Assembly: GCF_003151075.1 (NCBI RefSeq)
Contig: NZ_CP029482.1
Location: forward strand, 1,612,001 to 1,676,000
Length of the DNA stretch: 64,000 nt
Direction: 5' to 3'
Source: Pseudomonas sp. 31-12
GTDB taxonomy: Bacteria; Pseudomonadota; Gammaproteobacteria; Pseudomonadales; Pseudomonadaceae
In this document: positions 1,065 to 12,490 of the stretch, piece by piece
Numbering within the stretch: the stretch's first letter is position 1
How the letters are laid out: each line of letters begins with the position of its first letter
Translations under genes and position numbers: made by a program
Notes under the pieces: generated by a model
Database searches by the model: none
The model's input: the letters and a program-made list of their open reading frames with translations, nothing else
Told to the model about the DNA's origin: nothing

Positions 1065-1766
1065 TCAACCACCCAGATACGCTTCGCGCACTTTCGGATC
1101 AGTCAGCAGGGCTTCCCCGGTGCCGGTCATCACCACCCGGCCGTTCTCCAGAACGTAGGCGCGGTCGGCGATTTTCAGCGCCTGGTTGGCGTTCTGCTCT
1201 ACCAGGAACACGGTCACGCCATCCTTGCGCAGCTGTTCGATGATGTCGAAGATCTGCTGGATGATGATCGGTGCCAGGCCCAACGATGGCTCGTCGAGCA
1301 GCAGCAGTTTGGGTTTGCTCATCAGCGCACGGCCGATGGCGAGCATTTGCTGCTCGCCGCCGGACATGGTGCCGCCACGTTGGGCAAAGCGTTCTTTCAG
1401 GCGTGGGAAAAGTTCGAGAACCTTGTCCATCTGTTCCTGATAATCGCCCTTGTTGGTGAAGAACCCGCCCATGGACAGGTTCTCTTCCACGGTCAGACGG
1501 GCAAACACCCGACGACCTTCCGGCACGACCGCAATGCTTTTACGCATGATCTGCGACGAATCCTGGCCGACGAGCTCTTCGCCCATGTAACGTATGCTGC
1601 CGCTGTGGGCTTGCGGCGAACCGCAGAGGGTCATCAGCAAGGTCGACTTGCCGGCACCGTTGGCGCCGATCAGGGTCACGATCTCGCCCTGACGGACTTC
1701 GACGTTGACGCTGTGCAGCGCCTGGATCTTGCCGTAGAAGGTGGAAACGTTTTCGAATTGCAGCAT
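1065..1766 (-). CDS. livF: Branched-chain amino-acid ABC transporter, ATP-binding protein LivF
   Basis: This 233-residue ATPase is one of the two nucleotide-binding subunits that power import of leucine, isoleucine and valine. The Walker A motif GANGAGKST is at about residue 34, the signature MSGGEQQ at about 134, and Walker B LLLLDEPS at about 155 followed by the switch His region (LVEQN). The product ends in EAYLGG, typical for LivF/BraG. Its start codon directly abuts the stop of livG, so the two are translationally coupled. It is the last gene of the five-gene operon and is followed by a strong terminator. Confidence 0.96.
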   Translation of the reverse strand: MLQFENVSTFYGKIQALHSVNVEVRQGEIVTLIGANGAGKSTLLMTLCGSPQAHSGSIRYMGEELVGQDSSQIMRKSIAVVPEGRRVFARLTVEENLSMGGFFTNKGDYQEQMDKVLELFPRLKERFAQRGGTMSGGEQQMLAIGRALMSKPKLLLLDEPSLGLAPIIIQQIFDIIEQLRKDGVTVFLVEQNANQALKIADRAYVLENGRVVMTGTGEALLTDPKVREAYLGG

Positions 1767-2534
1767 TTACGCTTCCCCCAGGTAGGCTTTGATCACTTCA
1801 GGATTGTCGCGAATCTGTTCCGGCGTACCGTCGGCCAGAGGCGTGCCCTGGTTGATCACGACGATGTGGTCGGAAATGCTCATGACCAGTTTCATGTCAT
1901 GTTCGATCAGCAGCACGGTGACGTTGTGCTCTTCACGCAGCATGCTGATCAGCGCCTTGAGGTCCTCGGTTTCCTTCGGGTTCAGGCCGGCGGCCGGTTC
2001 GTCGAGCATGAGGATCCGCGGACGGGTCATCATGCAGCGGGCGATTTCCAGACGACGTTGCTGACCGTAGGCCAGAGTGCCGGCCGGACGGTTGGCGAAT
2101 TGCGTGAGGTTGACCTTGTCCAGCCAGAACTCGGCGAACTCCATGGCCTCGCGTTCGCTTTTGCGGAACCCCGGGGTCTTGAACAGGCCGGACAGGAAGT
2201 TGGTGTTCAGGTGACGGTGCTGCGCGATCAAGAGGTTCTCGACCGCGGTCATGTCCTTGAACAACCGCACGTTCTGGAAGGTGCGCACCACGCCTTTGAG
2301 GGCGATCTTGTGGCCCGGCAGGCCTTCGATCGGCTCACCGTCCAGCAGGATGCTGCCGCCGCTCGGTTTGTAGAAACCGGTCAGGCAGTTGAACACCGTG
2401 GTCTTGCCGGCGCCGTTAGGGCCGATCAATGCAACCACCTGTTTTTCCTTCACGGTCAGGGCCACGCCGTTGACCGCCAGCAAGCCGCCGAAGCGCATGC
2501 TCAGATTTTCGACTTTAAGGATCTCGCGGCTCAT
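1767..2534 (-). CDS. livG: Branched-chain amino-acid ABC transporter, ATP-binding protein LivG
   Basis: This is the second ATPase of the importer, 255 residues and of normal family length. It shows Walker [10 protein letters not shown] at about residue 39, the [13 protein letters not shown] signature region near 150, and Walker [14 protein letters not shown] near 170. The C-terminal [10 protein letters not shown] is typical of LivG/BraF. The start overlaps the end of livM by four bases (ATGA), so it belongs to the same operon. It works at the inner face of the cytoplasmic membrane with LivF, LivH and LivM. Confidence 0.96.
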
Positions 2535-3787
2535 TTGCGCAGCTCCATGTGAGGACGTTGCATGGGCAGCAGGCCTTGAGGACGCCAGATCATCATCAGC
2601 ACCATCAAGGCGCCGAACATCAACATGCGGTACTCACTGAACTCACGCATCATTTCCGGCAACAGGATCATCACCACGGCGGCCAGGATCACTCCCAACT
2701 GCGAGCCCATGCCACCCAATACGACGATGGCGAGAATGATCGCCGACTCGATGAAGGTGAACGACTCCGGCGTCACCAGTCCCTGACGGGCAGCGAAGAA
2801 ACTGCCGGCGAAACCTGCGAAGGCGGCGCCCAGGGTGAAGGCGGAAAGCTTGATGACCGTAGGATTCAGACCCAGCGCACGGCAGGCGATCTCGTCTTCA
2901 CGCAACGCTTCCCACGCACGGCCGATCGGCATGCGCAGCAAACGGTTGATCACGAACAGCGCAGCCAGGGCCAGCAACAGTGCAACCAGGTACAGGAAAA
3001 TCACCTTGTTGATCGAGTTATAGGCCAGGCCGAAGTACTCGTGGAACGTCTGCATGCCTTCTGCCGCTTTGCGCTCGAAGGTGAGCCCGAAGAACGTCGG
3101 CTTCTCGATGTTGCTGATGCCGTTCGGGCCACCAGTGATATCGGTGAGGTTACGCAGGAACAGACGGATGATTTCACCGAAGCCCAGGGTCACGATCGCC
3201 AGGTAGTCGCCGCGCAGACGCAGTACCGGGAAGCCGAGCAGGAAACCGAAAGTGGCCGCCATCAGGCCGGCGATCGGCAGACAGATCCAGAAGCCCAGAC
3301 CCAGATAGTGCGACAGCAATGCATAGCTGTACGCCCCGACGGCATAGAAGCCGACGTAACCCAGGTCGAGCAGGCCGGCCAGGCCGACCACGATGTTCAG
3401 GCCGAGGCCGAGCATCACGTAGATCAGCACCAGCGTGGCGATATCCACCGCACCGCGAGAGCCGAAGAACGGCCAGACCAGAGCACCGACGATCAACGCA
3501 ATGATGATCCAGCGCTGGGTGGTCGGCAGGGTCAGGAAGTTACTGGCCTTGGCCGGAATCAGCGGCATGTTTGGCGACGAGCGCCAGGCCGAGCTAATCT
3601 GTTGATCGAACAGCACCCGCAGGAACATCAGCACCGAGCACACCGCGATAGTGATCAGTGTGGCGCTGCTGGTGCCGTGCACTTCGAGGTGGATGCCGAC
3701 GATGGTCAGTTTCAGACCCAGTACCGGGTAGGCCACGGCCCACACCAGCAAAGCACTGAACAGTGCCTGTTTAAGATTCCTAGTCAT
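2531..3787 (-). CDS. livM: Branched-chain amino-acid ABC transporter permease LivM
   Basis: This 418-residue integral membrane protein is one of the two channel subunits. Multiple hydrophobic helices are visible, including an N-terminal extension with extra helices (residues 1-120) typical of the longer proteobacterial LivM/BraE. The core [24 protein letters not shown] is characteristic of the family, and the coupling loop [16 protein letters not shown] contacts the ATPases. It overlaps livH upstream and livG downstream by four bases each. Confidence 0.96.
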
Positions 3788-4707
3788 ACTTTTTCAACCT
3801 CCGGACGGCCAAGGATGCCGGTCGGCCGGAACAACAGAACCAGAACCAACAAGCCGAAAGCCACGACGTCCTTGTACTGGTCGCCGAAGATATCGGCACC
3901 AAAGGCTTCCGCCACCCCTAATACCAGCCCGCCGAGCATGGCTCCCGGGATGCTGCCGATACCGCCCAGTACCGCTGCGGTGAACGCCTTGAGTCCAACG
4001 AGGAACCCGGCGTTCGGGTTGATCACACCGTATTGCATGCTCAACAAGACGGCCGCGATGGCCGCCAATGCGGCACCGATGACGAAGGTCAGGGCGATGA
4101 TGTTGTTGGTATTGATGCCCAGCAAGTTGGCCATCTTGATGTCTTCGGCACAGGCGCGGCAGGCACGTCCGAGACGAGAGCGGGAGATGAACATTGTCAA
4201 GCCGAGCATGGCGACGAAGGTCACCACGAATACCACGATTTGCATGTAGGAAATCAGCACTTCATGTGCGCCACCTGGCCCGAAGGTGAAGCTGCCGGGG
4301 ATCAGGTTGGCTATGGATTTGTCCTTGGAGTCTTGCGCCAGCAGAACCGTGTTCTGCAGGAAGATCGACATGCCGATGGCGGAAATCAGCGGGATCAGAC
4401 GGTTGCTGCCGCGCAAAGGGCGGTAGGCGACGCGTTCGATGCTGTAACCGTAGGCACTGGTCACGACGATGGTCGCGATGAAAGCAGCGGTAATCAACAG
4501 CGGAACGCTGTCGAGTCCCAGCATGGCCAACCCGGCGATGGCGATGAACGCCACGTAGGAGCCGATCATGTACACCTCGCCGTGGGCGAAGTTGATCATT
4601 CCAATGATGCCGTAAACCATCGTATAGCCGATGGCGATCAGAGCATACGTACTGCCAATGGTCAGGCCATTAACCAGCTGTTGGAGGAAGTGATAGATGT
4701 CAGGCAT
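3784..4707 (-). CDS. livH: Branched-chain amino-acid ABC transporter permease LivH
   Basis: The 307-residue membrane protein is the second channel subunit of the importer. The N-terminal part reads [23 protein letters not shown] in overlapping hydrophobic segments typical of LivH/BraD. The cytoplasmic loop with [16 protein letters not shown] is the conserved EAA-like coupling region. The gene follows braC after a gap of about 230 bases containing a hairpin, so its expression may be lower than that of the binding protein. The reading frame overlaps livM by four bases. Confidence 0.96.
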
Positions 4708-4939: not shown

Positions 4940-6067
4940 TTACTGAGGCTTGGCTTCAGTTTTAGGTTTGCCGAAGTGCCACTCGTAAACCACAAATTTG
5001 AAGTCCTTCAGGTCGCCTTTGTCGTCGAAGCTCAGGTCGCCGGTTGGCGTCTTGAAGGTGCCTTTGTGGATGGCTTCAGCCACTTTGGCAGTGTCTTCGG
5101 ACTTGGCGGCCTTGATGCCTTCGGCAATCACTTCCACAGCCGAGTAGGCCGGGAACACGAACGGACCGCTCGGGTCTTCTTTCTTCGCTTTGAACGCATC
5201 AGCCAGGGCGATGTTGGCTGGATCTTGGTCGAAGGATTTCGGCAGCGTCACCAGCAGACCTTCCGAAGCTTTCTGAGCGATCTGCGAGATCGAGTCGTTA
5301 CCCACGCCTTCCGGACCCATGAACTTGGCTTTCAGGCCTTTTTCATCCGCCTGGCGCAGGATCAGGCCCAGCTCAGGGTGGTAGCCACCGTAGTAAACGA
5401 AGTCGACGTTGGCTTGCTTGAGTTTCTGGATGATCGACGAGAAGTCCTTGTCGCCGGCGTTGATGCCTTCGAACACGGCAACCTTGGTGCCTTTTTTCTC
5501 GAGGGTTTGTTTAACGGCGGTGGCGATGCCTTCACCGTATTGCTGTTTGTCGTGCAGGACAGCAACGATTTTCGGTTTTACGTGATCGGCGATGTAGTTA
5601 CCGGCGGCAGGGCCTTGGGCGCTGTCCAGACCGATGGTGCGGAACACCATTTTGTAACCACGGGCGGTGATGTCCGGGCTGGTGGCAGCCGGGGTGATCA
5701 TGATCACGCCTTCGTCTTCGTAAATGTCCGAAGCCGGTTGAGTGGAGCTGGAGCACAGGTGACCGACCACAAACTTGACGCCGTCGTTGACGACTTTGTT
5801 CGCGACAGCTACCGCTTGTTTTGGATCACAGGCGTCATCGTATTCAACGGCTTCGAGTTTCTTGCCGTCTACACCGCCTTTGGCGTTGATCTGTTCGATG
5901 GCCATTTTGGCGCCACTGAACTGCATGTCGCCGTATTGGGCTACAGGACCGGTTTTAGGGCCGGCGATGCCGATCTTGATGGTGTCAGCTGCGAACGAAT
6001 GGCTGGCAACCCCGGCCAGAACCATAGCGGCAAACAGTTTGGAAATCTGCTTAGTAGCCTTAGTCAT
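4940..6067 (-). CDS. braC: Branched-chain amino-acid ABC transporter substrate-binding protein
   Basis: The 375-residue periplasmic protein captures branched-chain amino acids (and in some relatives alanine or threonine) and delivers them to LivHM. It begins with a signal peptide (about residues 1-26, ending SHSFA). The mature N-terminus IKIGIAGPKTGPVAQYGD and the ligand-pocket region CSSSTQPASDIY are typical of LivK/BraC. It is the first gene of the operon and is separated from livH by a hairpin. The upstream region holds a striking 16-base palindrome that may regulate the operon. Confidence 0.95.
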   Translation of the reverse strand: MTKATKQISKLFAAMVLAGVASHSFAADTIKIGIAGPKTGPVAQYGDMQFSGAKMAIEQINAKGGVDGKKLEAVEYDDACDPKQAVAVANKVVNDGVKFVVGHLCSSSTQPASDIYEDEGVIMITPAATSPDITARGYKMVFRTIGLDSAQGPAAGNYIADHVKPKIVAVLHDKQQYGEGIATAVKQTLEKKGTKVAVFEGINAGDKDFSSIIQKLKQANVDFVYYGGYHPELGLILRQADEKGLKAKFMGPEGVGNDSISQIAQKASEGLLVTLPKSFDQDPANIALADAFKAKKEDPSGPFVFPAYSAVEVIAEGIKAAKSEDTAKVAEAIHKGTFKTPTGDLSFDDKGDLKDFKFVVYEWHFGKPKTEAKPQ

Positions 6068-6417
6068 AGTGCTCCACTCTTACTGTTGTAGTTTTTATAG
6101 TCCTGGCGCCGTAGCAGCAGAACCGGGTCAGATATCTTCGATATCCTCCGGAAAATGCCCCCGGCAACTGTACCGGTACAGTGTAGAGCGCCAATTGTTA
6201 GCCTGGGAAGCTGGCGCCGGGGGGCAAACCCTGAGGGTGTCGCTTTATTGAAAGAAAAAGACAGAATCGCGGCGGGATGTTAGCTGGCTAATTGCTTGAT
6301 TCAGCAGCATTCCCTGGCTTTCCTGCTCTTTTCATTCGATGACTCAATTGCATCCGGGTTTTTCTGCCAGACCACCGACGTTATCATTCGCGTCGATTTC
6401 TTTTCCGGACAGCGCCC
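6068..6417. other. Intergenic region between divergent braC and the DUF2288 gene
   Basis: This 350-base gap between divergent genes should contain the promoters of both. Apart from the palindromes at 6131-6145 and 6167-6182, no gene or repeat was seen; the half nearer 6418 is AT-richer. Confidence 0.6.
6167..6182. promoter_or_regulatory. Perfect 16-base palindrome upstream of braC
   Basis: ACTGTACCGGTACAGT is perfectly self-complementary and lies about 100 bases before braC. A second dyad, GATATCttcGATATC, lies at 6131-6145. Such sites suit a dimeric regulator. The regulator is not identified and no function is proved. Confidence 0.5.
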
Positions 6418-6723
6418 ATGAATGAAGAACCTAGCACCCTCTATGCCAAGCTGCTTGGTGAAACCGCATCTATTACCTGGAAAGAGTTGGAGCCCTTCTT
6501 CGCCAAGGGTGCCCTATTGTGGGTCAACCCTGGCCTGGATTTGATCGCCGCAGCAGAGGCAGTGGCGACGGATGAAGGGGAGAAAGTGGCTGCCTGGCTG
6601 GCTGCTGACAAGGTCGCCAAGCTCTCTGAAACGCGGGCGCTGGATCTTTTTGAGCGCGACCCGGAGTTGTGGGCCGTGGTGGTTTCGCCGTGGATTCTGA
6701 TCCAGGAAAGGGCGACGAGCTGA
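6418..6723 (+). CDS. DUF2288 family protein
   Basis: The 101-residue acidic, soluble product matches the small DUF2288 family of gamma-proteobacteria. Recognisable pieces are LYAKLLGETASITWKEL near the N-terminus, FFAKGALLWV in the middle and a C-terminal FEVxP-like tract, here VVVSPWILIQERA. No signal peptide or membrane segment is present and the function is unknown. The gene stands alone, divergent from braC and convergent with the tubulin-like gene. A hairpin at 6857-6883 may end its transcript. Confidence 0.85.
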   Translation: MNEEPSTLYAKLLGETASITWKELEPFFAKGALLWVNPGLDLIAAAEAVATDEGEKVAAWLAADKVAKLSETRALDLFERDPELWAVVVSPWILIQERATS

Positions 6724-6856
6724 CTATCTGCACTTTATTGGTGCGCCGTGCGATCGACTAAAAGTGTGTAGGTGAGTAGCGTGATGGCACGTTGCCGTAG
6801 AGAAAGGCCACAGAAGGGTCTTGGCGAGGGTGACGTAAACGTAACGGGAACAGTTT

Positions 6857-6883
6857 ATTGAGCAGCCTTCGGGCTGCTTAATT
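6857..6883 (+). terminator. Hairpin downstream of the DUF2288 gene
   Basis: The stem AGCAGCCttcgGGCTGCT is followed by TTAATTGTTT. It lies between two convergent genes and resembles a rho-independent terminator with an imperfect T tract. Confidence 0.6.
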
Positions 6884-6920
6884 GTTTCTGGATGTTGGTA
6901 TTTATAGTGAATTGGACGCC

Positions 6921-7013
6921 GCCATCGCGGGCAAGCCCGCTCCCACAGTGTCCGTGTCGTGCACAAAATCCATGAACGCCACTGAACCTGTGGGAGCGGG
7001 CTTGCCCGCGATG
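6921..7013. repeat. Paired REP element
   Basis: Two REP cores in opposite orientation (CATCGCGGGCAAGCCCGCTCCCAC and GTGGGAGCGGGCTTGCCCGC) lie in the gap (6724-7026) between the convergent DUF2288 and tubulin-like genes. Confidence 0.85.
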
Positions 7014-7026
7014 TAGTCGACGCAGA

Positions 7027-9222
7027 TCAGAACGTCTTGCCGGTATGGTTATTCAGCGAAATAACCTTGGTCTTGCCAATCCGGTGACGGTAGATCTCGC
7101 GCAGGTACTTGATCGCCTTCTTCACGCAATCGCGCGACAGGCGAATGTCGTTGATCGAGACAAACTTGTCTTTGTCGTTGATCAGCTCGCGGTACTTCTT
7201 CTCGTACATCGGTTTGATCGCGTACCAGTTGGTGTCGAGGATCTTCGCCGGGTTTTCGAACTCGTTGAGCAAGTCGTCGATCAGGTCTTCGTCGAAGTCT
7301 TCATTGATGATGAAGTCCAGGATCGAGTTATCCAGCGTGTCGTCGAAGCGGTACGGGTTCTTCGCGAAACAGCGCTTGATGAACGCGACGATCAGCGTCA
7401 GGAAGTCGTCCGACAGGCACGGGCTCTTGGCGATCAACGTGGTCAGCGACAAGTTGGCCGAGGCGCCGATTACCAGGGCATAACGCTTGAGCGTAGTGTT
7501 CGGGAACAGGCTGTTGAGGTGAGTCTTCAACCGGTTCAGGTCCATGTAGGACAGCTTGTAGTCTTTGGGCAGCGAGACAATCGATACCACCGACGAGCAG
7601 TTCTTGAAGAAGTGCAGGTCGTGCAACGCGGCTGCGTCATAACCGGAGTTCTTGTATTGCTCCAGCGACGCCCGATATCGCTTGGATTCGATCGGCAACA
7701 GGCTGATGCCTTCGATGGCCTGGGTGACCTTGTTGAAGTGCGGCAGGTCGATGGAGCGGAAGAACAGGTCATCAATGTTCAGGCGCTGCGGTTCTTTTTC
7801 GAACACCTTGAACTTGTCGCTGCTCGGCGGCGGCGTTTCCGGTACCACGGATTCGGCGTAGGCAATCGCCACCGGGCCGGCCAGGCTCATGAACAGGTCG
7901 TTGGCGTCGAGGCGAATGGTTTCGCCGATATCGATGCCAGCGCGACGGAAATAGTTCTGGTCGTAGTCAGTCGTGACCGCCTGCGCCGTCAGAATGTTGA
8001 AGATTTGCTGCGAGATGTACTGGTTGGCGTGCTTTTCCATCGCGTTGACGTCGATGTTCTGGATGTTGCCGTCATCGCTTTCTTCGGCATAACGCATGAT
8101 GTCGTTGGAGATCAGCATCATGGCGTTCCATGGGCGGATACGGCCCATGACGCTGGCTTCGCTGCTGTCTTCGTTGGCGAAGTTGTAGGAAAAGTCCCAC
8201 TCTTCCGACAGGTATTTGCACAGCAGGCGACCGGCGTTGATGTGCAGCGCCTCGGACATTTCGCTGCGGTGATCGGAAATGTTCGGCAGCACGCAGATGC
8301 CGCTGGTGAAGATCGGCTCGAAGACAAAGGAGTGACCACTCTTGCCGTCGTGTTCATCCATCGGCTTGGTGTCGAACGTCTTGTTCATGTACGAGTGCTG
8401 CTGGGCCAGGCCGAATTCCGAGGCCATGCCCGAACCGGTACCGCCGCCGGCACTGAAGATCGAGAAGTACAGGCGCGACTGGTTGGCCTTGATCCCGCAG
8501 CTGTCGATCAGGTACGAGTGAATCATCTTCCAGTCCGGGCTGGAGAAACGCTGGGTGTCCTTGTTCAGGATGATCTTGGCCAGGTATTGGCCGAGGATCG
8601 GCGCGTTACCGGCGCCACCGGCGTGGACTTCCGACAAGTCCATGATCTTCATTTTGCTGTAGTCGCGCAGGAAACCGCTTTTTTCGCCTTTGCGCGAGAA
8701 GCGGATGCGACCGGCGATGTCTTTGTCCAGGTCGCCGAGCATCACCAGCGGCTCGACCAGGAACACCGGTTTGGTGGCCTTGTTCGTTCCCAGGCGCAGG
8801 TTGTTGCGGATCCACTGCGCCGGGCTGTAACCCTTTTCGGCGTAGCGTTTGTCCGGCGACAGACGGTCTTCGTTGTTGAATTCGTTGAGGTAAAACTTGC
8901 GGGCGTTGTACACCAGCTCCGCGACGTCCAGCGCAATGTTCGATCCGCAACGTCCCAGCCCGATCAGGCACACCGAAGGGAATTCCTGTTCGTTGTGCTG
9001 TTCGTTGTCGCCTTCCAGGTGCGGTGGGCGCGGAAATACCATGTCGCGCAGGCCATCGAGGTTGTCGAGGATGCGGTCGGTGTTGGTTTCGGTGAAATAC
9101 AGGTATTGCTGACTGGCCAGCGGACGTGACGGGATCAATGGCTTCGACGATGAGGGGCTGTTTGCCGCAGGGCTCAGTGTCAGATCGGAAACCGCAGTGG
9201 CCGGATTATTTTTAGAAGTCAT
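7027..9222 (-). CDS. Tubulin/FtsZ-like GTPase domain protein (chromosomal, solitary)
   Basis: The 731-residue product carries the tubulin-superfamily nucleotide-binding signature SAGGGTGSG at 257-265. An N-terminal glycine loop VCLIGLGRCGSN (84-95) fits the first FtsZ/tubulin loop, and AGGAGN (201-206) is another glycine turn. LDANDLF at 438-444 resembles the catalytic T7 loop of FtsZ (NxDxxD type). The first 80 residues are Ser/Pro-rich and probably disordered. The C-terminal 290 residues have no recognised domain and end in a basic tail. It is much larger than FtsZ (about 390 residues) and is neither a TubZ plasmid protein nor a phage PhuZ by size. No partner gene is adjacent. An in-frame GTG at 9279 is an alternative start, but neither start has a strong ribosome site. 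Function unknown. Confidence 0.8.
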   Translation of the reverse strand: MTSKNNPATAVSDLTLSPAANSPSSSKPLIPSRPLASQQYLYFTETNTDRILDNLDGLRDMVFPRPPHLEGDNEQHNEQEFPSVCLIGLGRCGSNIALDVAELVYNARKFYLNEFNNEDRLSPDKRYAEKGYSPAQWIRNNLRLGTNKATKPVFLVEPLVMLGDLDKDIAGRIRFSRKGEKSGFLRDYSKMKIMDLSEVHAGGAGNAPILGQYLAKIILNKDTQRFSSPDWKMIHSYLIDSCGIKANQSRLYFSIFSAGGGTGSGMASEFGLAQQHSYMNKTFDTKPMDEHDGKSGHSFVFEPIFTSGICVLPNISDHRSEMSEALHINAGRLLCKYLSEEWDFSYNFANEDSSEASVMGRIRPWNAMMLISNDIMRYAEESDDGNIQNIDVNAMEKHANQYISQQIFNILTAQAVTTDYDQNYFRRAGIDIGETIRLDANDLFMSLAGPVAIAYAESVVPETPPPSSDKFKVFEKEPQRLNIDDLFFRSIDLPHFNKVTQAIEGISLLPIESKRYRASLEQYKNSGYDAAALHDLHFFKNCSSVVSIVSLPKDYKLSYMDLNRLKTHLNSLFPNTTLKRYALVIGASANLSLTTLIAKSPCLSDDFLTLIVAFIKRCFAKNPYRFDDTLDNSILDFIINEDFDEDLIDDLLNEFENPAKILDTNWYAIKPMYEKKYRELINDKDKFVSINDIRLSRDCVKKAIKYLREIYRHRIGKTKVISLNNHTGKTF

Positions 9223-9420
9223 TGGGCGCCATGTACCTGGGCTGGTTGGCTCGGCGACACGGTGTCGTCGAACCTTCACGGAATAGGAACTCGCGGCTTT
9301 ATTCAGCGCGTATTTTGCCCAAGCGACAGGGACAAAGCCTGAGCGTCGCTCGGGGGAATCCTTTCCTTAGTCATGATGAATCGGCCAATATTCGGCGATC
9401 TTTAATCAAAAGAAGGCTAA

Positions 9421-10317
9421 ATGATGTCAACGCTACCTTCGTTGAGTTTTGCTGGAATCGGCCTGATGGGCTTGCCCATGTGCCGTCGCCTGTTGGCGGC
9501 GGGGTATCCGCTGACGGTCTGGAATCGCAATCCGGCCAAGTGCGCTCAGCTGGTCGAAGCTGGCGCCCGGCAGGTGTCGACAGCGGCCGAATTGGCTCGG
9601 CATGCCGACGTGGTGATGCTGTGCCTGGCGGACACGGCGGTGGTGCGCGAGGTGGTTTTCGGCCCGGCCGGCATTGCCGAGGGCGCTAAAGGTGGCCAGT
9701 TGCTGGTGGACTTTTCCAGTCTGGAACCGACCGCGACGCGGGAAATGGCCTCGGCGCTCGTCAGCCAATGCGGCATGCGCTGGCTCGACGCGCCGGTGTC
9801 CGGCGGAGTCGTCGGTGCCGAGGCCGGCAGCCTGGCGATTATGGTCGGCGGCGAAGCGCCAGACCTGGAGCGAGTCAGACCGGTGCTGCTGAACCTCGGT
9901 CAACGGGTAACTCACATGGGCGGTGTCGGCGCCGGGCAAGTGACCAAGGCCTGCAATCAGATGATCGTTGCCTGCAATGCGCTGGTGATTGCGGAAGTGG
10001 TGGCGTTGGCCGAGCGCTCCGGGGTCGACGCCCGCCTGATCGCCGAGGCACTGGCGGGAGGCTTCGCTGATTCAAAACCGTTGCAGATCCTCGCTCCGCA
10101 AATGGCCGAGAGCCGTTTCGAGCCGGTGAAGTGGCACGTGCGCACGCTGCTCAAAGACCTCGACACTGCGGTGCAATTCTCCCGCGAACAAGGTTCAGCC
10201 ACGCCGATCAGCGGATTGGCCGCACAACTGATGCGCCTGCATGGGGGGCAGGGCTTTTTGGAAAAGGATCCGTCGACGTTAGTGCAGTTGTACCGCACGC
10301 CAGGCTCAAAGAACTGA
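9421..10317 (+). CDS. NAD(P)-dependent beta-hydroxyacid dehydrogenase (GarR/MmsB-like)
   Basis: The 298-residue product is a cytoplasmic oxidoreductase of the 3-hydroxyisobutyrate / tartronate semialdehyde reductase family. The Rossmann motif GIGLMGLPM lies at about residues 12-20, the substrate loop DAPVSGGVVGAEAG at about 122-135, and the catalytic Lys in GAGQVTKACNQM near 180. The substrate cannot be told from sequence. A GAAGG ribosome site precedes the ATGATG start; 9424 is an alternative start. Its 3' end overlaps the convergent MHYT-GGDEF-EAL gene by about 110 bases. Confidence 0.88.
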   Translation: MMSTLPSLSFAGIGLMGLPMCRRLLAAGYPLTVWNRNPAKCAQLVEAGARQVSTAAELARHADVVMLCLADTAVVREVVFGPAGIAEGAKGGQLLVDFSSLEPTATREMASALVSQCGMRWLDAPVSGGVVGAEAGSLAIMVGGEAPDLERVRPVLLNLGQRVTHMGGVGAGQVTKACNQMIVACNALVIAEVVALAERSGVDARLIAEALAGGFADSKPLQILAPQMAESRFEPVKWHVRTLLKDLDTAVQFSREQGSATPISGLAAQLMRLHGGQGFLEKDPSTLVQLYRTPGSKN

Positions 10318-12490
10318 CACTGCGTGAGTGTTTGCGCTGATTGATTTCGTCCAGTACCGCAGGCAGCTCGGCCAGAGGCACCGGACGGCTGAACAGGTGG
10401 CCCTGAACCAGGTCGCAGCCCTGGCGTTCGAGAAAATCATATTGCTCGGACGTCTCGACGCCCTCGCTGACGACCTGCAAATGCAGGGTGTGGGCCATGA
10501 TGATAATGGCGTTGACGATTTCCATGTCCTGGGTGGCCTTGGGGACGTCCTGAATGAACGAGCGGTCGATTTTCAGTGTGTTCAGCGGCAGGCGCTTGAG
10601 GTAGGCCAGGGATGAATAGCCGGTGCCGAAGTCGTCGATCGACAGCGACACACCGAGTGAACGGATCTGCTTCAGCAGCACCAGGGTGTTGGCGAGGTTG
10701 CCCATCAGCGCGTTTTCGGTCACTTCCAGTTCCAGCCGTTGTGGCGCCACCCCGGCGATGCGCAGGGCGTTTTCGATTTCATCGGCCAGTTCTTCACGGG
10801 CAAGGTTCAGCGGCGAGCAGTTCACGGCAATCTTGAGTTCGTCGCGCCCCTGACGGGACAGTTCTGCAAGGTCCCCGCAGGCCCTGAGCAATACCCAGTT
10901 GTCCAGTTCAGCGATCAGGCCGTTGGCCTCGGCAATGGCAATGAATCGATCCGGTGCCAACAGCCCGTGAACCGGGTGTTGCCAGCGAATCCGCGCTTCG
11001 AGTTTGGTGACCTGGCCGATTTTCAGGTCGTAGATCGGTTGGTAATACAGAGTCAAGCCGTCTTCATTGCGCAGGGCGTGCCGCAGTTCTTCTTCTAGCT
11101 GCAGCTCCAGCGAGGCGCGGGTTTTCATGTGCGGACTGAAAAAATGCAGCCCGTTGCGTCCGCTGCCTTTGGATTGATAAAGCGCCAGATCGGCGTTTTT
11201 CAGCAGTTCCTCGCAGGTTGTACCGTCCTGCGGAAACACGCTGATGCCGATGCTGGTGGTCATGACCATGCTGCGCCCGGCCAGCTCGATGGGGTCTTTC
11301 ATTTTCAGCATGATGCGCTGGGCCATTTGCTGCGCTTCTTCACGGTCACGCAGGTCGATGAGGATGCAGAACTCGTCCCCGCCAAAGCGCGCCACCACAT
11401 CGTCGTGGCTGTGTGCCGAATCCTTGATGTGGCCGGCCAGGACCTTGAGCAATTCGTCGCCGGCATCATGGCCCAGGCTGTCGTTGATCCGCTTGAAGTG
11501 GTCGATGTCGAGGAACATCACCGCCAGCATCCCGCCTTCCTTGGTCTTCTCCAGCAGTTTTTCAACGAAAATCTGGTTGAAGCCACGACGATTGATCAGG
11601 TTGGTCAGTGCGTCGGAGTGCGCCACCTGTTGCAGCGACAAGCGCGCCTGATCCAGTTGGCCGAGCAAGGTGTTGACCCGCTGCAGGTCGCCTTCCTTGT
11701 GTTGCAGCTTCTTGTCGGCGAGTGCCGCGCTGATACTGCTGCCAATGATCAGTAACGTCATCATCGCCACCGTCAATCCCAGCTGCAGGTGGTTGTTGTC
11801 GCCGGGCAGCGGCTGGGCGCTATCGATGGGCAGCACCAGGCTGAGTGCTGCCATGCCAGTGAAATGCATGCTGACGATGCCGGCCCCGAGCACCAGGCTG
11901 GCGGTGTATTTGAGCAGTTGATGAGCGACGCCGCTGCCTTCGCGCAGGTGACGGGAAATCACCAGGGCCGCCAGGCTGGCGCCAATCGCGATCACGACGG
12001 AGAGGACGAACAGGGTGGGGTCGTAATAAGCCGTCGCATTCGACTGCATAGCGGCCATGCCCACGTAGTGCATGGTCGCGATACCCAGGCCGATCCACAC
12101 TGCGGCCCGCAGGGTTTGCCAGAAACTCACATGAGGATGGCTGAGGGTATGCATCGCCAGCCACGAGGCCGTCAGTGCAAATAACAGCGAAATCAGGGTG
12201 ATGGGCAGCTGGTAACTTATTTCGATCGGCGCCTGGAACGCCAGCATGCTGATGAAGTGCATGGCCCAGATACCGCCCGCCAGACACCCGGCACCGACCC
12301 AGCGCCAGAGCCGTTGGGACGCGGGTTTTTCGGCATGGCCGACCCGTTCGGTAATGTCCAGCGTGGCGAAGCCGGTCGCACAGGCGACCACGTAAGCGAG
12401 CAACACCAGAAAGGGGTTATGGACGCAATTGAGTATGACCTGGCCGGTCTCTGGCAGTTGGTTCGTAAAATATAAAGCAGGCCACTCCAT
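10208..12490 (-). CDS. MHYT-GGDEF-EAL cyclic-di-GMP signalling protein
   Basis: The 760-residue inner-membrane protein has seven hydrophobic helices carrying three MHYT-type motifs (MHFISM at 77, MHYVGM at 140, MHFTGM at 208), thought to sense a gas or bind copper. A GGDEF domain follows with an intact GGDEF at 370-374, and then an EAL domain. The EAL signature reads LEARIRW, so the Leu is Arg, but the metal-binding Glu and the downstream NCSPLNL, LEVTEN, DDFGTGYS and EGVET motifs remain. The I-site Arg upstream of GGDEF is absent. It resembles MucR/NbdA proteins of P. aeruginosa and probably both makes and degrades c-di-GMP. The C-terminal tail overlaps the neighbouring gene on the other strand. 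Confidence 0.93.
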   Translation of the reverse strand: MEWPALYFTNQLPETGQVILNCVHNPFLVLLAYVVACATGFATLDITERVGHAEKPASQRLWRWVGAGCLAGGIWAMHFISMLAFQAPIEISYQLPITLISLLFALTASWLAMHTLSHPHVSFWQTLRAAVWIGLGIATMHYVGMAAMQSNATAYYDPTLFVLSVVIAIGASLAALVISRHLREGSGVAHQLLKYTASLVLGAGIVSMHFTGMAALSLVLPIDSAQPLPGDNNHLQLGLTVAMMTLLIIGSSISAALADKKLQHKEGDLQRVNTLLGQLDQARLSLQQVAHSDALTNLINRRGFNQIFVEKLLEKTKEGGMLAVMFLDIDHFKRINDSLGHDAGDELLKVLAGHIKDSAHSHDDVVARFGGDEFCILIDLRDREEAQQMAQRIMLKMKDPIELAGRSMVMTTSIGISVFPQDGTTCEELLKNADLALYQSKGSGRNGLHFFSPHMKTRASLELQLEEELRHALRNEDGLTLYYQPIYDLKIGQVTKLEARIRWQHPVHGLLAPDRFIAIAEANGLIAELDNWVLLRACGDLAELSRQGRDELKIAVNCSPLNLAREELADEIENALRIAGVAPQRLELEVTENALMGNLANTLVLLKQIRSLGVSLSIDDFGTGYSSLAYLKRLPLNTLKIDRSFIQDVPKATQDMEIVNAIIIMAHTLHLQVVSEGVETSEQYDFLERQGCDLVQGHLFSRPVPLAELPAVLDEINQRKHSRSVSSLSLACGTTALTSTDPFPKSPAPHAGASVVRPIR

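Follow-up and report, generated by a model that had tools for sequence, protein, structure and literature searches.

Does a Pseudomonas chromosome that already carries ftsZ encode a second tubulin-type protein, and what might such a protein do there? The question was raised by a gene in a 64,000-nucleotide stretch of Pseudomonas sp. 31-12 DNA (the window, whose positions are used below), in which a sequence-only reading had seen a solitary, chromosomal tubulin/FtsZ-like GTPase with extra domains. That reading held a second cytoskeletal GTPase in such a position to be notable. As a novelty this does not stand, since such a family, FtsZl2, has been on record since 2010, its type being a P. fluorescens protein, as the available excerpts of the paper concerned show (PMC2875224). 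What the gene product is likely to be, where it occurs, and what stands beside it are taken in turn.

The gene and its family

The gene lies on the minus strand, which the earlier reading had left unstated, at 7027-9222, with an ATG at 9222 and its stop at 7027, and encodes a predicted FtsZl2-type GTPase of the tubulin superfamily of 731 amino acids; the open reading frame, the family alignments and the predominance of synonymous change all mark it as a gene. An alternative GTG start at 9279 would give 750 amino acids. Across 45 near relatives the Met at residue 1 never varies; its place in the family alignment A1 is no evidence for the start because the starts in A1 were chosen by hand, and the ATG is a provisional choice. 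Against 15 relatives of equal length, 113-170 codon differences are synonymous and 9-28 non-synonymous, with most changes at third positions, and the gene is under purifying selection. No Rfam match was found at 6000-9700 and no promoter-like sites at 6300-9600. Just downstream of the gene is an inverted pair of REP-type repeats (6925-6947 and 6989-7011); the repeat, TCGCGGGCAAGCCCGCTCCCACA, has 22 matches in the window at three or fewer mismatches and none in 100 shuffles, and REP-type repeats occupy 20 further places in the window, often as inverted pairs. Many long shadow frames lie opposite likely genes on both strands between 422 and 20868, as expected of a GC-rich genome; one of these, at 7045-9129 on the plus strand (694 amino acids), is opposite the FtsZl2 gene.

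With 731 amino acids against 401 for the FtsZ frame of the same genome, the earlier description of the protein as about twice the size of FtsZ is fair, and the motifs that had been quoted are where they were placed, VCLIGLGRCGSN at residues 84-95, SAGGGTGSG at 257-265 and LDANDLF at 438-444. The N-terminal 80 residues had been called disordered, which is overlong: residues 1-36 (9115-9222, minus strand) form a variable leader in which 0 of 36 columns are invariant among 28 members, whereas residues 37-80 hold a conserved block, with 6 of 44 columns invariant. Hydropathy revealed no transmembrane segment in the protein (maximum 19-residue mean 1.4).

The 28 aligned members were picked from fetched loci and are 57-88% identical to the query, and 313 of the 731 query positions are invariant across them. 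The loop names T1 to T7 follow general usage and the 2010 paper, with T6, T7 and helix H7 assigned by eye and position only. So named, the T1, T3, T6 and T7 motifs occur in 28/28 members and T4 in 27/28, in constant order. T1 is GLGRCGSN at residues 88-95 (8938-8961, this and the following loops all on the minus strand), read as G[L/F]GRCGSN in every member; the T3-like loop GGAGNAP at 202-208 (8599-8619), likewise in all 28, is paired by hhalign with FtsZ GAGANP; and the T4 signature loop AGGGTGSG at 258-265 (8428-8451) falls within the sub-threshold Pfam Tubulin match, which covers residues 253-269. The S6-T6-like segment WNAMMLISND at 365-374 (8101-8130) is WN[AS]M[ML]LISND in 28/28 members, and the T7-like loop RLDANDLF at 437-444 (7891-7914) is equally constant. 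By eye the latter resembles NVDFAD of FtsZ, and its Asp439 and Asp442 are candidate catalytic residues. The FtsZ of the same genome has its own motifs in the same order (GVGGGGGN, GLGAGANP, GGGTGTG, PNEKLL and NVDFAD). The one T4 exception, an otherwise intact copy at 7923-10115 of locus L151 (genome G193), reads GGGTDSG instead of GGGTGSG; either the variant is inactive or the change could stem from a sequencing error.

Searches against family models gave scores of 18.1 bits for PF00091 (Tubulin), of 33 required, and 16.5 bits for PF13809 (Tubulin_2), of 27 required. A profile search against Tubulin_2 and FtsZ models had been proposed. The two tubulin families were the best, both being matched by 19 of the 20 members scanned (best E 0.0018 for Tubulin and 0.0013 for Tubulin_2), but curated cut-offs were unreached. 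Pfam showed no FtsZ_C match in the protein, NCBIfam no tubulin-type match, PADLOC nothing, and no solved PDB chain matched by sequence; matches to MIF4G, Imm42 and YhgE/Pip were sporadic or sub-threshold and were dropped. Local hhalign comparison with 31 FtsZ sequences placed T1, T3 and T4 in register (P 0.0072, probability 5%) and set FtsZ T6 and T7 opposite other residues; with alignment A1, T3-T4 alone were in register with FtsZ (P 0.014), global mode against the 31 FtsZ yielded no related alignment, and a home-made profile comparison recovered only the GGGTGSGMA segment. AlphaFold2 models of the whole protein (45 rows, mean pLDDT 29.8) and of residues 536-731 (24 rows, pLDDT 39.3), both built from near-identical relatives only, were uninformative on the tubulin fold, and because both are pLDDT-poor the fold assignment rests on sequence.

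From these results one might suppose that GGGTGSG is coincidental and that the protein is an unrelated nucleotide-binding protein, for example of Rossmann type. GLGRCGSN is also like a generic nucleotide-binding loop, and the lack of any family model over cut-off, the pLDDT-poor models and the hhalign result at T6 and T7 would all suit that reading. It is nonetheless extremely unlikely when set against five motifs or motif-like segments that stand in FtsZ order and are near-invariant, the recurrence of Tubulin and Tubulin_2 as best families, and a published HHpred match of PFL_1302 to PF00091 (PMC2875224, in the excerpts available). Membership of the FtsZ/tubulin superfamily is thus supported by colinear near-invariant motifs, weak Pfam matches, the hhalign register at T1, T3 and T4, and the published analysis of FtsZl2.

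In that analysis Makarova and Koonin (2010) took PFL_1302 of P. fluorescens Pf-5 as the basis of FtsZl2, via the motif GGGTG(S/T)G; its available excerpts describe a protein with all the motifs of the nucleotide domain, including T6-H7-T7, with inserts between T1 and T4 and with some 300 C-terminal residues that have no known relatives, found in Proteobacteria (PMC2875224). They report no gene association, predict filaments, and regard a division role as unlikely. On the tested features the present gene fits FtsZl2, the comparison with PFL_1302 being one by description: in common are the genus Pseudomonas, the T1, T4, T6 and T7 motifs, additional residues separating T1 from T4, a C-terminal region of similar length (about 300 residues) and a co-resident FtsZ, and by description no difference between the proteins was found. 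In the genome of strain 31-12, PF00091 matches only the canonical FtsZ, located elsewhere, and PF13809 only the FtsZl2 gene, below cut-off; the gene, present as one copy, is the sole tubulin-like gene found there besides ftsZ, and for this reason we infer that it is the orthologue of PFL_1302.

Canonical FtsZ (PF00091 plus FtsZ_C) shares with the protein the order of T1, T3, T4, T6 and T7 and the two T7 aspartates, and differs in its length of about 400 residues, in its FtsZ_C domain and in being encoded by a separate gene of the same genome; FtsZl2 also stays sub-threshold in Pfam. FtsZl1/Tubulin_2 is another diverged tubulin relative of bacteria that carries a large extension at its C-terminus, and a sub-threshold PF13809 match is shared with it; however, the PF13809 cut-off is unreached and no vWA, OmpA or kinase gene was recognised beside FtsZl2. 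FtsZl2 keeps T6-H7-T7, which in FtsZl1 was not confidently identified, according to the same excerpts (PMC2875224). In the literature searched, the names FtsZl2 and PFL_1302 appear in PMC2875224 alone, and there was no experimental study of FtsZl2 among the matches listed. A 2023 census, by the part of its text available, gathered sequences with PF00091 (PMC9871819), and FtsZl2 was probably outside it, being below that cut-off.

Distribution and genomic setting

A contig scan confirmed 565 of 579 pattern-matching stretches as FtsZl2, the best 80 of the 565 being all from Pseudomonas. Conservation across the genus, put forward earlier as a check, was borne out: 194 of 298 sampled genomes match, strain 31-12 included (192/288 among those of good quality), and 104 have no match. 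Partial or two-piece genes are found in four of the 194 (G254, G067, G075 and G269). The genomes lacking a match, together with these partial copies, indicate that FtsZl2 is not essential and argue against a division role. At the G067 locus (L159, 8001-9233), otherwise a syntenic Pseudomonas locus, FtsZl2 lacks its N-terminal part and the dehydrogenase gene next to it is missing too, which suggests one deletion. Over ten loci taken at even steps from 80 kept, FtsZl2 is 96-99% identical, RapA 97-99% and LivK 94-98%. Lower values are seen for the adjacent dehydrogenase, at 87-90%, and for the GGDEF-EAL gene of the same loci, which is 77-84% identical in nine and in two pieces in one.

Outside the genus the distribution is patchy. 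In class, phylum and order samples that overlap one another, there were matches in 2 of 369 genomes of the class (strain 31-12 included), in 10 of 398 of the phylum, six of these in the same genus (again with strain 31-12), and, with a family profile, in 13 of 244 of the order, with three from the same genus (strain 31-12 among them), seven from genus g280, two from g478 and one from g275. Of the remaining phylum matches, those in G789 and G804 are about 70% identical and that in G1023 is a broken copy; the one in G710 was rejected as spurious since it sits in a low-complexity frame. The G1023 copy (L146, 7784-10407) is in several pieces, and the frame between two of them (8767-9399) is presumably that of an SGNH/GDSL-hydrolase-like protein. 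Within the order, FtsZl2 from other genera is 57-72% identical to the query. A copy from another order, on a contig of 9384 bases (L143, genome G333), is as close or closer at 72-75%, and could reflect horizontal transfer or a contaminating contig.

The view that FtsZl2 is an accessory FtsZ paralogue working in division, co-assembling with FtsZ or modulating the Z ring, can point to the canonical FtsZ in the same genome and to the GTPase motifs common to both proteins. The 104 genomes of the genus without a match and the missing FtsZ_C match make this view distinctly unlikely, as do the loci that were read, in which no division genes were recognised beside FtsZl2. Makarova and Koonin also thought a division role unlikely, in the text available (PMC2875224).

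Four genes around FtsZl2 in the window were identified with Pfam; the names of its other neighbours are provisional. At 1065-4707 is what we take to be a branched-chain amino-acid ABC transporter set, followed by a periplasmic binding protein of a branched-chain amino-acid transporter (4940-6067) and a DUF2288 gene (6418-6723); on the other side is an NAD-binding gene of hydroxyisobutyrate-dehydrogenase type (9421-10317). Among 25 Pseudomonas loci that were compared, 17 have the liv genes close by (10/10 of the near ones and 7/15 of the more distant), and the liv, DUF2288 and dehydrogenase neighbours were found in Pseudomonas loci only. In the g280 loci the recurring neighbours include what is probably an exopolyphosphatase-like gene, plus others. 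No orthologous partner gene common to several genera emerged among the loci compared. The description of the gene as solitary therefore needs dividing: it is chromosomal and has no cross-genus orthologous partner, but different GGDEF genes recur nearby. The absence of plasmid or phage genes beside it, also claimed, held in that none was recognised among neighbours whose names are mostly provisional.

Bacteria and phages also have tubulin relatives that do not act in division, TubZ, RepX and PhuZ. A domesticated plasmid- or phage-type tubulin of the TubZ/PhuZ kind, now chromosomal, would fit a single gene with a patchy distribution outside Pseudomonas. FtsZl2 differs from such proteins in having no plasmid or phage match: searches of 72,556 plasmid records and 50,697 phage records returned no match, none of 123 pattern matches in viral contigs was confirmed, and there was no PHROG for the query. 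With the liv genes nearby in most of the Pseudomonas loci compared, this origin is to be regarded as exceedingly improbable.

GGDEF genes near FtsZl2

In the window, a MHYT-GGDEF-EAL gene assigned with Pfam (10208-12490, minus strand), a possible linked c-di-GMP gene, is separated from FtsZl2 by one opposite-strand gene. The surroundings of 47 FtsZl2 loci were compared, comprising the window, 26 earlier loci and 20 fresh ones, some with short flanks or a broken FtsZl2. A GGDEF domain lies within 6 kb in 29 of the 47, three of these having two, and 32/32 such domains are on the strand of FtsZl2; in the fresh set alone the counts are 13 of 20 loci and 16/16 on the same strand. Loci with such a GGDEF gene include L143, L144, L148, L149, L151, L154, L155, L213, L214, L216, L217, L250-L253 and the window. 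For comparison, 40 control regions, each surrounding a central frame, were taken at set places from ten genomes that carry FtsZl2, a few with flanks just short of 6 kb; a separate GGDEF gene is within 6 kb in five (three on the same strand, two on the opposite), and in one further region the central frame is itself a GGDEF gene.

The 32 genes belong to five different groups, with one fragment. MHYT-GGDEF-EAL occurs in 16 loci, on the 5' side of FtsZl2 in 13 and on its 3' side in the other three; an ammonium transporter-PAS-GGDEF-EAL gene in 5 of 7 g280 loci; PAS-GGDEF-EAL in G333; NMT1-GGDEF in three loci, the third by group and the others by Pfam scan; and a short GGDEF protein, assigned without Pfam scan, in six. 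Three of the five genera have such neighbours (Pseudomonas, g280 and that of G333), and g275 and g478 have none.

These counts are to be read with the abundance of GGDEF genes in mind (35-62 matches per genome, but 4-5 in g478, over 27 genomes), and with the fact that adjacent genes are often on the same strand anyway. The family was picked after looking at the loci, those of Pseudomonas share ancestry and come nowhere near being independent, and only one new arrangement came from the fresh set; grouping loci by shared neighbours into independent contexts merged nearly all the Pseudomonas loci and was unusable. Because the loci are non-independent and the test post hoc, a link between FtsZl2 and c-di-GMP is suggested only. 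The 2010 excerpts report no gene association for FtsZl2, a point on which the present loci may differ from them; a reviewer of that paper mentioned a diguanylate phosphodiesterase beside an FtsZl1 gene (PMC2875224). That five different GGDEF genes share the strand of FtsZl2, across three genera, raises the idea that a filament may respond to c-di-GMP output or help to organise it, motility and attachment being examples; in its full form, in which FtsZl2 makes a GTP-driven filament system of its own that works outside division and is tied into cyclic-di-GMP signalling, the idea is tentative and, on present evidence, rather doubtful.

A predicted non-division polymer

Taken together, these observations make it quite probable that the gene encodes an FtsZl2-family protein, which most likely would form a GTP-dependent head-to-tail polymer with a role outside division. 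The protein would be cytoplasmic, with a tubulin-type nucleotide domain at about residues 80-460 and, after it, about 290 C-terminal residues peculiar to the family. The invariance of the residues is best fitted by GTP binding through loops T1 to T6 and a site between subunits that is completed by T7, such that Asp439 and Asp442 of one subunit would complete the GTPase site of the next during head-to-tail assembly. The presence of a canonical ftsZ, and the third or so of sampled genus genomes without a match, point to a conditional scaffold outside cell division.

The C-terminal region (residues 445-731; 7030-7890, minus strand) comprises 287 residues past T7 with no Pfam family over cut-off. 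Two of its segments are highly conserved among the 28 members (536-602, with 40 of 67 columns invariant, and 657-695, with 24 of 39), and a basic amphipathic stretch at about 693-713 has a hydrophobic moment of 0.61-0.63 and a net charge of +4; an acidic amphipathic stretch at 645-664 outscores it. The conserved and basic stretches suggest a binding or anchoring module, which may anchor the filament or couple it to the inner membrane or to a partner. An FtsZ-like C-terminal domain, seen by eye as strand-helix-strand-strand at residues 545-600, is not claimed because the profile comparison gave it no support.

The same region bears on whether long filaments form at all. FtsZl2 might instead be a tubulin-fold GTP-binding switch or small oligomer in which the C-terminal region blocks or replaces the longitudinal contacts, and both the size of this family-specific region, in which no similarity to the FtsZ C-domain was detected, and the T1-T4 and T6-like to T7-like spacings, larger than in FtsZ, can be cited for it. 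Such a switch is unlikely: both T7-like aspartates are invariant in 28/28 members, which is what a GTPase site completed by the next subunit would require, and filaments are what Makarova and Koonin predicted for the family in the excerpts available (PMC2875224).

In summary, a head-to-tail polymer of non-division role is the preferred reading of a tubulin relative that is as conserved as RapA and LivK and matched in about two thirds of the sampled genomes of the genus. With Pfam tubulin cut-offs unreached and no tubulin-type match in NCBIfam, it probably escapes annotation and censuses that rely on such models. If FtsZl2 does polymerise, a common and tractable genus would hold a cytoskeleton that has gone unstudied; a first testable hint at its job comes from the GGDEF genes that recur nearby.
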